From contig JAFGTA010000101.1 in the NCBI GenBank assembly GCA_016934355.1, positions 1-64,000 of the forward strand: a stretch of 64,000 nt of DNA, given 5' to 3'. Below the pieces are notes generated by a model. It searched no databases, was not told where the DNA came from, and saw nothing but the letters and a program-made list of their open reading frames with translations. Below, in pieces: positions 18,625-43,897 of the stretch (the first letter of the stretch is position 1; the number at the start of each line of letters is the position of its first letter). A program made the translations under genes and the position numbers. Origin of the DNA: Candidatus Bathyarchaeota archaeon. Its GTDB lineage: Archaea; Thermoproteota; Bathyarchaeia; TCS64.

Positions 18625-19029
18625 ATGCGTTCAAGCAGCCGAAGGAGAGATTCCGTCGAGGATATGCGGAAGCTGTTCAAAGAGCTGAACACACTTGTGG
18701 ACGTGGTTCTAGTAGAGGGAGCGAGAGACGTTAAGTCACTGAGACGTCTAGGGTACAGGGGAGAGATCGTGTCATGTGGCGTCCCTAACATGGGCGACTT
18801 CGACTTGATGACCGCGTTATCACGTAGATACTGCAGCGTTTTGATCCTCACGGACTTTGATCGCGAGGGGCAGTCGCTGAACCAGCGGTTCACCGAGATC
18901 CTCGAACATGAGGGCGTCAAGGTCGAGCAGGGGCTTAGAGACGAGGTCGGTAGAATAACGGCGGCCCTCGGCGTCTACGCCATCGAGTCCTTGGACAACA
19001 TGATGGACGCCGTCGACCGCGGCGTATAG
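18625..19029 (+). CDS. small archaeal Toprim-domain protein
   Basis: 134 residues. Toprim motifs are intact: the Glu in VDVVLVEGARDVKSLRRLG, then the DxDxE-type motif in VLILTDFDREGQSLNQRF. The fold is shared with RNase M5, primases and topoisomerases and indicates Mg-dependent phosphodiester chemistry, possibly in RNA processing. It corresponds to the short stand-alone archaeal Toprim proteins (UPF0292-like). The next gene is the HflX-Nth fusion, which has its own TATA box (CTTATAAAG at about 19034). Confidence 0.8.
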   Translation: MRSSSRRRDSVEDMRKLFKELNTLVDVVLVEGARDVKSLRRLGYRGEIVSCGVPNMGDFDLMTALSRRYCSVLILTDFDREGQSLNQRFTEILEHEGVKVEQGLRDEVGRITAALGVYAIESLDNMMDAVDRGV

Positions 19030-19073: not shown

Positions 19074-20924
19074 ATGACAGAGCAGGAGACCCTTAAGGGC
19101 CAGACGAAGAAGTCTAAGGCTTTTCTTTGCATGTTGAAGACCAACGTGCACGACCATACGATATACAAGATCAGGATGAACGAGCTGCAGAGTCTGGTGG
19201 AGGCCCTGGGCATCGAGATCGCCGGCGAGTTGATACAGAGCAGATACCGTCCCTTCTCAAAGTTCCTTATCGGCAGCGGAAAGGTCAAGGAGCTGGGCAA
19301 AAAGGTGAAGCGCCAAGGCGTCGACCTCGTCATCTTCTATAACATCCTGAGGAGCAGCCAGAAGCTCAACCTGATAAGGGCGCTTGGCTGCGACGTCATC
19401 GACAGGTACGAGCTCACCCTTGAGATATTTGACAGCATGGCCTCTGACACACTCAGCAAGCTCCAGATACAGGCCGCTCGCTTGGAGAAGCAGGCCCCTT
19501 TCTACAAGCTGCAGGCGTCGATTAACTACCGCTACGACCGCCCGTTCTTCAGGGCAGGAGGCGAGTACGGGTTCCACGGCCAGATGAGGGAGATGAGTAG
19601 GAACCGGGCCCGGGTCCGCGAAGAGATCGATAAGCTGATGGAGGACAAGAGCAAACGCATCTGGAACAGGCGAAAGCTCGGCTACCCCGTGGTCTGCATA
19701 GCCGGCTTCTATAACGCGGGGAAAACTAGCCTGTTCAACGTGGTGACCGGCGATAACAAGCCAGTGAGTGATCGACCTTTCACCACCTTGACGAGCAAGT
19801 ACCAGCGTAGGTTCATCGACCATGAGACGACCGTCCTGTTCATCGATACCATCGGCTTCGTTCTGGACCTTGACCCACGGCTAATCCAGAGCTTCAAGCT
19901 CAACCTGCTCGACATAAGGAGCTCTGACATAGTTATTCTGTTGCTGGAAATAACTGACCCACCCTTGACCCTGCAGATGAAGCTCGATGAGGGTATTAGG
20001 CTCCTCAAGGAGATAGGTGTATCACACGATCGCATAGTAGTCGTTTTTAATAAGCTGGACAAGGACCCCGAGCTTGAGAAGACCATTGGCGTCGAGCTTA
20101 ACGTTGACCGTTACAACCTGCCATGGATAGCCGTGTCGGCTAAGGAACGCAAGAACCTGCAGGGCCTACTCTACCTGATAGCTGAGAGGCTCAGGCACCT
20201 CCGGGACAACCCGCCTGAACCGCAAGACCTTTCGCCGTTCCAGAGGAGCGAGACTGCGATCAACAGGCTACTGCAGCACTACCCAGTGGACTATCACCCT
20301 CGTGACCTCGATCCTTTCCGCGGCCTGGTTTCGACCATCCTCAGCCAGAACACTAACAGTAAGAACCAGATGACGGCCTACACTAGGCTGGAGGAGATGG
20401 TGGGGATCACGCCTCAGAGAATTATTGAGGCTTCAGATGACTTGATCAGTGAAGCCATCAAGCCAGCCGGCATGTACAACCAGCGGACAAGGACTCTGAA
20501 AGCCGTGAGCAGGGAGGTCATGGAACGGTACGGCGGCGACCTCGGCGTAGTCTTCGAGATGTCGTTCCCAGAGGCGCGTGAGACGCTGGTTGAGCTCCCT
20601 GGGGTGGGGCCCAAGACTGCTGACGTTGCGCTGATGTTCGTGGCGGACCGCCAGGTGGTTCCTGTAGATCGCCACGTCGAGCGTGTCTCCAAACGCCTTG
20701 AAGCCGTGCCACAGAACGCCGGCTACGAGGATGTGCGTAGAGCCCTGGAGGACGCCTCTACTCCTGACAGGTTCAGAGAGGTGCATCTATCCATGATCAG
20801 GTTCGGACGCGAGGTATGCCGCTCACAGAAGCCTCTCTGCGGCGAATGTTTGCTAAACGACCTGTGTCCCTATCCCAAAAAACATGTGCTACCTTTATCA
20901 GAAACCGAGCACTCCCTCCACTGA
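19074..20924 (+). CDS. HflX-type GTPase fused to endonuclease III
   Basis: 616 residues in one uninterrupted frame. Residues 1-380 are HflX: N-terminal domain with FLIGSGKVKEL, a coiled-coil linker (about 125-200), then a GTPase with G1 GFYNAGKT (211-218), G3 DTIG (258-261) and G4 NKLD (326-329). Residues 388-616 are a complete endonuclease III: LVSTILSQNTNSKN, the helix-hairpin-helix LPGVGPKTADV with catalytic Lys514, catalytic Asp532 in VDRHV, and a [4Fe-4S] ligand set C582-x6-C589-x2-C592-x5-C598. Both halves look active. HflX acts on stalled ribosomes and Nth removes oxidized pyrimidines. I know of no standard protein joining them. Confidence 0.9.
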   Translation: MTEQETLKGQTKKSKAFLCMLKTNVHDHTIYKIRMNELQSLVEALGIEIAGELIQSRYRPFSKFLIGSGKVKELGKKVKRQGVDLVIFYNILRSSQKLNLIRALGCDVIDRYELTLEIFDSMASDTLSKLQIQAARLEKQAPFYKLQASINYRYDRPFFRAGGEYGFHGQMREMSRNRARVREEIDKLMEDKSKRIWNRRKLGYPVVCIAGFYNAGKTSLFNVVTGDNKPVSDRPFTTLTSKYQRRFIDHETTVLFIDTIGFVLDLDPRLIQSFKLNLLDIRSSDIVILLLEITDPPLTLQMKLDEGIRLLKEIGVSHDRIVVVFNKLDKDPELEKTIGVELNVDRYNLPWIAVSAKERKNLQGLLYLIAERLRHLRDNPPEPQDLSPFQRSETAINRLLQHYPVDYHPRDLDPFRGLVSTILSQNTNSKNQMTAYTRLEEMVGITPQRIIEASDDLISEAIKPAGMYNQRTRTLKAVSREVMERYGGDLGVVFEMSFPEARETLVELPGVGPKTADVALMFVADRQVVPVDRHVERVSKRLEAVPQNAGYEDVRRALEDASTPDRFREVHLSMIRFGREVCRSQKPLCGECLLNDLCPYPKKHVLPLSETEHSLH

Positions 20925-20927
20925 TAT

Positions 20928-22103
20928 TTGATGTTCAGAAACGTAGAGCGTAACCTTGTCTATCTCTTTGCACTGAACATCGCTTTCGGCTTAGCTTCAC
21001 AACTCATCAACCCGTTGTTCCCGCTTTTCCTAGAGGGACTGGGAGCATCCGAGGTGCAGAACGCCATGGTTATTTCCGCAGGTAACCTCGCCGCGACTCT
21101 GCTAATGCTGCCGAGCGGCCTTCTCATAGACAGGGTGGGAAGGAAGACGCTGCTCCTCACTGGGGCGGCTCTTTCCACTGTCTCCGTTTTGCTGCTTTCC
21201 ATAGCCGGCAACTGGGAGGTCGTTTTACCGATCTACGTATTGTTCAGCGTGGCGGGGGCGTTCTTCCTGCCCGCTAGGATGGCAATGATAGCCGACACCG
21301 CCAACTCATCCAACAGGGCTTCACTCTTCGGTGTAATGAACCTCGCCTGGCCAATCACCGGGATAATAAGCCCCGTGTTAAGCGGCTACTTGGTAGAGTT
21401 CTTCAGCTGGCGAATCGTGTTTCTCATCGCCGGGGCCATAAACGCGCTGAGCCTCATTCCCGCATTCCTGATAAAGAGGAAAGGGACCTACCTTAAGAAG
21501 ACCGAGAAAGCGTCCATTAGAGACATCTTCAAGCCGACCGTGTTCCCCATCCTAGCTGCGTTCTTCCTGTTTCACTTCCTAATGACTACAGGTCTCGGAG
21601 GCGTGAACCAGATACTGCCCCTGTTCCTGAAGGAGGTTCACGGACTCACGCCCTCGATGATAGGGCTGTTCTTCACGGCGCCCAGCTTTGTCACCCTCTT
21701 AACACAGGTTCCCAGCGGGAAGCTGGCCGACAGGTTCGGGAAGAAACGCTTGCTGATCTCATGCGTAACGTTCATCCCGTTCCTCTACGCCTCCTGGTTC
21801 TTCATAGATAACTGGCTTATCCTATTGGTCGTGAACTCCGTGTCTTTTGGGCTGTGGAGCATGACATGGCCTGCTACTCTGGCGCTTCTCTCTGACGGGG
21901 TCCCGGATGACCTGCGCGGCGCCGCCTTCGGGGTCCGGATGACGGGCGTCAGGCTCGGCTTCACAGTAGGGCCAATCATAGGCAGCTACTTCTACAGCAG
22001 CTACTTCTCTACCTCGCCTTTCCTCGCAGCGGCGGGCTTCACGCTACTGGGCCTAGTGGTTGCCTTCACGTTGAAGGACAAGGTCCCAGAGAAGAGAAAC
22101 TGA
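20928..22103 (+). CDS. MFS transporter
   Basis: 391 residues with about 12 hydrophobic helices. The loop between helices 2 and 3 reads GLLIDRVGRKTLLL, the MFS signature, and a related one (GKLADRFGKKRLLI) is in the second half. It starts 3 nt after the HflX-Nth stop, so it is probably co-transcribed. Start is ATG 20928 or the adjacent ATG 20931. Substrate is unknown; the family includes drug and metabolite exporters. A distant paralogue is at 41156. Confidence 0.88.
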   Translation: MMFRNVERNLVYLFALNIAFGLASQLINPLFPLFLEGLGASEVQNAMVISAGNLAATLLMLPSGLLIDRVGRKTLLLTGAALSTVSVLLLSIAGNWEVVLPIYVLFSVAGAFFLPARMAMIADTANSSNRASLFGVMNLAWPITGIISPVLSGYLVEFFSWRIVFLIAGAINALSLIPAFLIKRKGTYLKKTEKASIRDIFKPTVFPILAAFFLFHFLMTTGLGGVNQILPLFLKEVHGLTPSMIGLFFTAPSFVTLLTQVPSGKLADRFGKKRLLISCVTFIPFLYASWFFIDNWLILLVVNSVSFGLWSMTWPATLALLSDGVPDDLRGAAFGVRMTGVRLGFTVGPIIGSYFYSSYFSTSPFLAAAGFTLLGLVVAFTLKDKVPEKRN

Positions 22104-42856: not shown

Positions 42857-43324
42857 CTACCCTGTTCCTTCTATGACGATCTGGAACGAAAAGTCCTCGA
42901 TACCTGTTATGCCGCTCGACACGTCAAGCGTTATGACTGCCTCCACCGCCTCGCCCATCGACAGCGCGTACCCTTCACGGCTCCACGAGACTGTGAGGTA
43001 GCCAGCCGCCTCAGGGGGAGCCCAGCCGTACACGGACATGCTTAAACCCATCTCCGCGTTTCCCTCGTTCTTAACGTACACCGTCTTTGTCACGGTGTCC
43101 CCCGGCTCCGGCGTCCCCCAGTCCAGCGAGGACACCTGCTGCGTGCACCCCTGATCAGAGTACACGCCTACATCCACCACCTTGATGGAGCCAGAGTTGT
43201 CCAGAGTCTTCGAGGACGTCAGCAGACCATGCACCCCCAGGCTCGCCGCCAGCGACGCGATTAAAACAGCAAAGGCAAGGGGCTTCTTTAATCCACTTTT
43301 AAGCACGCCCGCTATCTCTGTCAC
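42857..43324 (-). CDS. TasA/AbpA-like secreted filament protein, copy 2
   Basis: 155 residues from GTG 43324, chosen because it aligns with the ATG of the neighbouring paralogue (both begin M-T, followed by a basic stretch) and both share CTATCG then GTGAC upstream. Signal or anchor helix: KKPLAFAVLIASLAASLG. The mature part has VGVYSDQGCTQQVSSLDWGT, PGDTVTKTVYVKNEGNAEM and DFSFQIVIEGTG at the end. This resembles the camelysin/TasA group and archaeal bundling pilin AbpA, a beta-sandwich that polymerizes by donor strand. Function is inferred. About 60% identical to the upstream copy by eye. Confidence 0.6.
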   Translation of the reverse strand: MTEIAGVLKSGLKKPLAFAVLIASLAASLGVHGLLTSSKTLDNSGSIKVVDVGVYSDQGCTQQVSSLDWGTPEPGDTVTKTVYVKNEGNAEMGLSMSVYGWAPPEAAGYLTVSWSREGYALSMGEAVEAVITLDVSSGITGIEDFSFQIVIEGTG

Positions 43325-43432
43325 CCATCTGCGATAGATTCGGTGAAAACTAAATTGATGCTGTCCCCCGGTGATCACTGGACCCGGTGAAAGACCAAAG
43401 AGGTCTCAGGCTGATCAATGAGCGGTTGAAGG

Positions 43433-43897
43433 TTAACCAGTTCCCTCGACTACGATCTGGAACGAGAAGTCGTTCACACCGGTGATGCCGCTAGAGACCT
43501 CCAACGTGACGGTGGCTCCAACCACCTCATCCTCAGATAGAACCGTGCTCTCCTGGTCCCACGAGACCGTGAGGTAGGCATCCACACCCGAAGGAACCCA
43601 GGTGTTAGCTGACATGCTTAAGGTCATCTCCGCGTTGCCCTCGTTTTTAACGTATATCGTCCTTATCACTGTGTCCCCCGGATCTGGTGTGCCCCAGTCC
43701 AGTGACGATATAGGCGTCGTACACGCCAGATCAGAGTAAACCCCGACATTTATCCCCATAATAGAGCCAGAGCTGCTGAGGGTCTTCGAGGCAGTCAACA
43801 CTCCGAAGACTCCCATCCCCATGCCCGCGAAAAGCGAGGCGATGATCACTCCAAAAGTCAGTATCTTTTTTGATTCTCCCCTTATCATGCTGGTCAT
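43433..43897 (-). CDS. TasA/AbpA-like secreted filament protein, copy 1
   Basis: 154 residues. N-terminus MTSMIRGESKKILTFGVIIA then a hydrophobic helix and ASKTLSSSGSI. The mature domain repeats the copy 2 pattern: VGVYSDLACTTPISSLDWGT, PGDTVIRTIYVKNEGNAEMT, VSSGITGVNDFSFQIVVEGTG. Both copies keep one Cys after YSD. A promoter motif TCCATAATCGCTTTTA (minus strand; 43934-43949) lies about 40 nt upstream and recurs before the next gene at 44316. Tandem duplication is clear. Matrix or pilus role is inferred. Confidence 0.6.
   Translation of the reverse strand: MTSMIRGESKKILTFGVIIASLFAGMGMGVFGVLTASKTLSSSGSIMGINVGVYSDLACTTPISSLDWGTPDPGDTVIRTIYVKNEGNAEMTLSMSANTWVPSGVDAYLTVSWDQESTVLSEDEVVGATVTLEVSSGITGVNDFSFQIVVEGTG

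Follow-up and report, generated by a model that had tools for sequence, protein, structure and literature searches.

An HflX-type GTPase fused to an endonuclease III-like glycosylase in one Bathyarchaeota lineage

Does a single archaeal gene combine a translation GTPase with a base-excision glycosylase and, if so, how did this gene originate and what does the union of the two enzymes achieve? HflX is a ribosome-binding, ribosome-splitting GTPase. A reading frame that apparently joins this protein to endonuclease III was spotted, in a sequence-only reading, in a 64,000-nucleotide stretch of Candidatus Bathyarchaeota DNA (hereafter, the window). The frame at 19074-20924 (+) runs from an ATG start to a TGA stop without an internal stop, and its product (616 amino acids) consists of an HflX-type GTPase, a linker of about 16 residues and an endonuclease III-like HhH-GPD glycosylase, so that the proposed single polypeptide holds. 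The gene includes the following parts:

19074..20924, + strand: whole fused gene (616 aa), a single open frame; the fusion recurs in homologues
19074..20189, + strand: HflX-type half (residues 1-372), with the N-terminal, helical and G domains, the latter with G1, G3 and G4
20190..20237, + strand: linker (residues 373-388), with the lowest conservation, a fixed span and a low-confidence block in the predicted structure
20238..20888, + strand: EndoIII-like HhH-GPD glycosylase half (residues 389-605), including Lys514 and Asp532
20817..20867, + strand: iron-sulphur motif C-x6-C-x2-C-x5-C (residues 582-598); match to EndIII_4Fe-2S just under the cut-off

Three Pfam families are recognized in the fused protein above their cut-offs, namely GTP-bdg_N at residues 34-119 (PF13167, 82.7 bits versus 25.4), MMR_HSR1 at 207-327 (PF01926, 54.8 versus 21.9) and HhH-GPD at 419-560 (PF00730, 71.2 versus 26.2). 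The HHH (499-518) and EndIII_4Fe-2S (582-598; 19.4 bits versus 20.5) matches fall just below. The NCBIfam profiles align over 21-373 (HflX) and 395-589 (Nth), both under the cut-off; the GTPase HflX equivalog, TIGR03156, scores 203.2 bits against 216.75, and the N-terminal half is therefore classified only as HflX-type. The alignment with 22 fusions places the GTPase motifs at 211-218 (G1, GFYNAGKT), 258-261 (G3, DTIG) and 326-329 (G4, NKLD), and the glycosylase residues at Lys514, Asp532 and Cys582/589/592/598. The active residues of both halves are thus intact in the window protein, as initially proposed. Among the HflX proteins compared (E. coli, 5ady/7yla; Listeria HflXr, 8a57; S. solfataricus, 2qtf), only the fusion has a glycosylase after the G domain. 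According to an excerpt of PMC4770234, bacterial HflX carries at this point of the chain a small C-terminal domain that aids ribosome splitting, and S. solfataricus HflX lacks that domain.

The architecture is recurrent. Among the 120 homologues listed out of 517, 74 (query included) contain both halves in more than 560 amino acids, and the other fusions are 61–79% identical to the query. A search with the glycosylase half, limited to proteins of 0.55–1.75 times the length of the fused protein, retrieved 74 proteins, of which 69 combine the GTPase with HhH-GPD, every one already among the listed homologues; the remaining five have other architectures. Within the class, which was reached via a Candidatus Bathyarchaeota assembly (G001) whose fusion is 78% identical to that of the window, 7 of the 256 genomes encode the fusion (G001, G002, G003, G004, G005, G010 and G251). 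In a sample of 398 genomes from the phylum, G001 was the only genome with a match across both halves among the matches listed. Many other genomes of the class encode far more distant HflX proteins (31–37% identity; e.g. L086-L094), with nth located elsewhere in the genome. The existence of relatives with two genes could suggest that an assembly or sequencing error joined them in the window. This explanation is effectively ruled out, with a negligible residual probability, by the recurrence of the fusion in 74 clusters from several data sources and in seven genomes, and by its placement in a single clade in trees of both halves. Overall, the fusion is genuine, of single origin and restricted to one lineage of Bathyarchaeota.

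The designation of the C-terminal half as endonuclease III requires qualification. It belongs to the HhH-GPD superfamily, with the catalytic Asp532, and in the possession of the Lys, the Asp and the four Cys it is EndoIII-like, so this part of the original assignment stands; the more specific name does not, given that the half scores below every NCBIfam cut-off, i.e. 114.6 bits versus 211.7 for Nth (TIGR01083), 70.5 versus 286.5 for MutY (TIGR01084) and 114.4 versus 400 for the DR2438-type monofunctional glycosylase (NF053634). Judging by these scores, the fused half is not Nth proper but a divergent EndoIII-like paralogue, the catalytic residues of which are intact. In the set of endonuclease III enzymes compared, i.e. 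DrEndoIII1 and DrEndoIII3 of D. radiodurans (4unf, 4uob) and GsEndoIII (1orn), the fusion is the only one joined to HflX, and DrEndoIII1 is the best sequence match of the glycosylase half among the solved structures. An excerpt of PMC9268735 describes DrEndoIII1 as mostly monofunctional and capable of processing single-stranded DNA, and by analogy, these properties provide a lead to the activity that the fused half might possess.

The possibility that the fused half is the sole EndoIII-type enzyme of the cell is rejected for five of the seven fused genomes (G002, G004, G005, G010 and G251), each of which has a separate full-length HhH-GPD gene above the Pfam cut-off. Among the separate glycosylases scored for Nth (those of G002 and G004, and one from G010; G005 and G251 are outside this scoring), two pass the cut-off (G002, 253.5 bits; G004, 240.9 bits), and the G010 gene falls below it (176.6 bits). 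Of the two other genomes, for both of which assembly completeness is not given, G003 contains an additional HhH-GPD fragment (66.5 bits, profile positions 1-75) and G001 an additional match below the cut-off (22.1 bits).

The likely source of the fusion is apparent from relatives in which the two genes are separate. Another 17 genomes of the class contain an unfused hflX of the same type (57–67% identity), and in 14 of these, all Bathyarchaeota, a separate nth lies downstream on the same strand. These pairs share with the fusion the two families, their order and strand and, mostly, the location upstream of rpl3; they differ in encoding two polypeptides, in the +1 frame of nth and in the all-Cys iron-sulphur motif (14 of 14). 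In all 14 pairs, the open frame of nth starts before the hflX stop, although at the L037 locus, the candidate nth start comes after that stop, so that the overlap is one of open frames and not necessarily of coding parts. The hflX stop varies in both codon (TGA in 8 pairs, TAG in 4, TAA in 2) and position, and each of the 8 TGA stops falls within the codons that specify an R-x-E-E motif in the glycosylase frame.

The quick trees of the two halves (SH-aLRT support only, long branches flagged) sample 39 of the 74 fusions, every second one plus two. In each tree, one branch separates the fusions from all other rows and places them among the unfused pairs; its SH-aLRT value is 97 for the HflX half (79 rows) and 99 for the glycosylase half (81 rows). 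The single clade in both trees points to one origin. The nearest group with neighbour pairs is the same in both trees (G255, G008 and G256). One solo protein, P0079, known without its gene neighbourhood, lies nearer than this group, as sister to the fused clade, in the tree of the HflX half, which includes 14 of the 42 solo proteins. The sequence-only reading had stated beforehand that a sequencing error would betray itself by relatives in which a stop divides hflX from nth; the 14 genomes that possess such genes all lie outside the fused clade, and they therefore represent the ancestral state and are no evidence against the fusion. Taken together, the frames and the trees show that two adjacent genes, hflX and one for an EndoIII-like glycosylase, the open frames of which overlapped in the +1 relation, became one frame once. 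A net frameshift within the overlap, fixed a single time, is the simplest account.

Alternatively, the unfused relatives might already join the two parts by programmed +1 frameshifting, which the fused clade then fixed in the DNA. The +1 frame and the overlap of the open frames, both seen in every one of the 14 pairs, are compatible with this scenario, as are the L027 and L031 junctions, where the glycosylase core is not preceded by ATG, GTG or TTG. However, such a start codon is present in the 12 other pairs, the hflX stop is conserved neither in codon nor in location, and L027 and L031 carry a CTG, their only candidate start there, with a Shine-Dalgarno-like match of 5-6 bases upstream, although such matches are not decisive. 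Translation of nth from the CTG and a +1 frameshift are both conceivable at these two junctions, and across the 14 pairs, programmed frameshifting is very improbable. Within the fused genes, no common internal start is kept across the eight DNA sequences: between residues 375 and 400, ATG, GTG or TTG occurs in five (GTG at residue 384 in G010, G251 and G003, and at 378 in G004; TTG or GTG at 399 in G001, G003 and G004) and in none of the window, G005 and G002. Internal initiation yielding a free glycosylase may occur in the five sequences that contain a start codon.

The boundary between the halves is visible in both conservation and predicted structure, in agreement with the join originally located at about residues 380–388. 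The linker at 373-388 is the least conserved stretch, with a mean top-residue frequency of 0.57, compared with 0.64 in the first glycosylase helix and 0.71–0.86 elsewhere, and the AlphaFold2 confidence drops to 63 in the block 381-390. The folds of both halves are confirmed, including the fold of ribosome-bound HflX; the pTM is 0.57, and thus, no preferred arrangement of the two halves is predicted. In the 56 fusions aligned for this count, the span from A356 to S424 is 68 residues in 55 and 71 in one. Such a fixed linker length may reflect geometric coupling beyond mere tethering.

The catalytic residues are conserved on both sides of the linker. The Lys and the Asp are present in all 71 fusions scored of the 74 (the motif pattern left 3 unscored for these residues and 9 of the 74 for G1, G3 and G4), and G1, G3 and G4 as well as S424-T427, G510, G512, D532 and H534 are invariant in 22 fusions. 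In six pairs of DNA sequences, the pN/pS ratio is 0.08–0.21 for the HflX half and 0.12–0.27 for the glycosylase half, with pS of 0.66–0.83, i.e. near saturation, in three of the pairs. These values indicate that both halves are under purifying selection.

The iron-sulphur site varies. The four-Cys site claimed in the sequence-only reading is present in the window protein but not throughout the family: at the position of the second ligand (Cys589), the 74 fusions are divided equally between Cys (37) and His (37, including P0031, P0039 and P0049), and the latter have a putative Cys3His site. All 14 unfused neighbour nth genes and the 17 distant nth genes of the tree have Cys at this position, and the glycosylase tree requires only one Cys-to-His change, inside the fused clade; the replacement is younger than the fusion. 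Among the literature matches listed, no natural His ligand was seen in EndoIII or MutY; a Cys-to-Ser variant of DrEndoIII2 is unstable, according to an excerpt of PMC9268735.

In the gene neighbourhood, gene names were read from the sequences and not taken from a family search. Under these names, rpl3 lies downstream of hflX(-nth) in 19 of the 24 genomes, at a distance of 0.16–2.2 kb in the seven fused genomes. On the upstream side, five of the seven have EF-2, a glycerate-kinase-like gene and a toprim-like gene in the same order as in the window, with a gap of 2–4 kb in this set in G005 and G002; the other two fused contigs start too near the fusion to show the upstream genes. In the window, the small toprim-like frame (18625-19029) is directly 5' of the fused gene and is preceded by EF-2 and the glycerate-kinase-like frame. 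An MFS-type gene separates the fusion from rpl3 in G001 and G003; the window has an MFS-type transporter frame in this place (20928-22103), and a relative occupies it in the unfused G243 as well but is absent from the other genomes with rpl3 downstream. Three genomes, G007, G248 and G226, have this hflX without an adjoining nth; in the first two (L060 and L065), hflX directly precedes rpl3, with no nth between, and there is one HhH-GPD match per genome. Away from this locus, the window contains two adjoining frames with similar N-terminal hydrophobic stretches (42857-43378 and 43433-43897, -), perhaps encoding tandem secreted or pilin-like proteins.

What, then, does the fusion do? For this genuine two-enzyme protein of single origin, we consider it probable that the main effect of the fusion is the obligatory 1:1 production and co-localisation of independently working enzymes. 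By analogy with other HflX proteins, the N-terminal half would bind the large ribosomal subunit and use GTP; the glycosylase half would excise damaged bases from DNA via Lys514 and Asp532, and would hang from the end of the G domain, in the position of the bacterial C-terminal domain. The merged gene would supply the two activities in equal amounts and in the same place, and the fused clade keeps a tether of fixed length along with both sets of active-site residues. Because the two genes stood side by side before they merged, in most cases next to the ribosomal-protein operon, shared expression suffices to explain why they became partners.

The main rival, a ribosome-coupled form of repair in the spirit of the link between translation stalling and oxidative damage that the first reading had surmised, is unlikely. 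Here, HflX would deliver the glycosylase to ribosomes or, where transcription and translation are coupled, to DNA, with GTP or the ribosome state gating excision, or damage gating splitting. This scenario would fit the fixed length of a linker whose residues vary the most, the attachment of the glycosylase where, in the excerpt of PMC4770234, a splitting-aiding domain is found, and the location upstream of rpl3; against it, the gene neighbourhood alone explains the pairing, this hflX persists in three lineages with no nth next to it, and the structure prediction does not favour any arrangement of the halves. Conversely, the glycosylase domain could be mainly a structural add-on of HflX, comparable to the bacterial C-terminal domain, with repair left to the separate glycosylase. 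The additional full-length HhH-GPD genes in five of the seven fused genomes, with full Nth in G002 and G004, and the altered iron-sulphur ligand in half of the fusions are in line with this idea, but the retention of the Lys and the Asp in every scored fusion, the invariant glycosylase residues and the purifying selection make it quite improbable. A bolder and doubtful extension is a ribosome-tethered glycosylase, in which the linker of ruled length would hold the EndoIII-like enzyme where factors bind the large subunit, one molecule would deal with stalled translation as well as with damaged bases, whether in DNA or in RNA, and the iron-sulphur site would have been retuned later by the Cys-to-His replacement in half of the clade.

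No earlier description of an HflX-glycosylase fusion was found by title in the literature searched (subscription papers and preprints were outside this search), in accord with the initial impression that no protein with this pair had been described, and the main text of a review on the non-catalytic domains of DNA glycosylases mentions neither a GTPase nor HflX (PMC9266487). The protein has a new architecture, built from two known families, which turned up once in the searched data. It provides a natural series that leads from separate overlapping genes to one fusion and then to a change of an iron-sulphur ligand, and the His-type fusions offer a natural variant, putatively Cys3His, of the EndoIII-type motif. 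With this one gene, the idea that ribosome rescue may be linked to base repair becomes testable.
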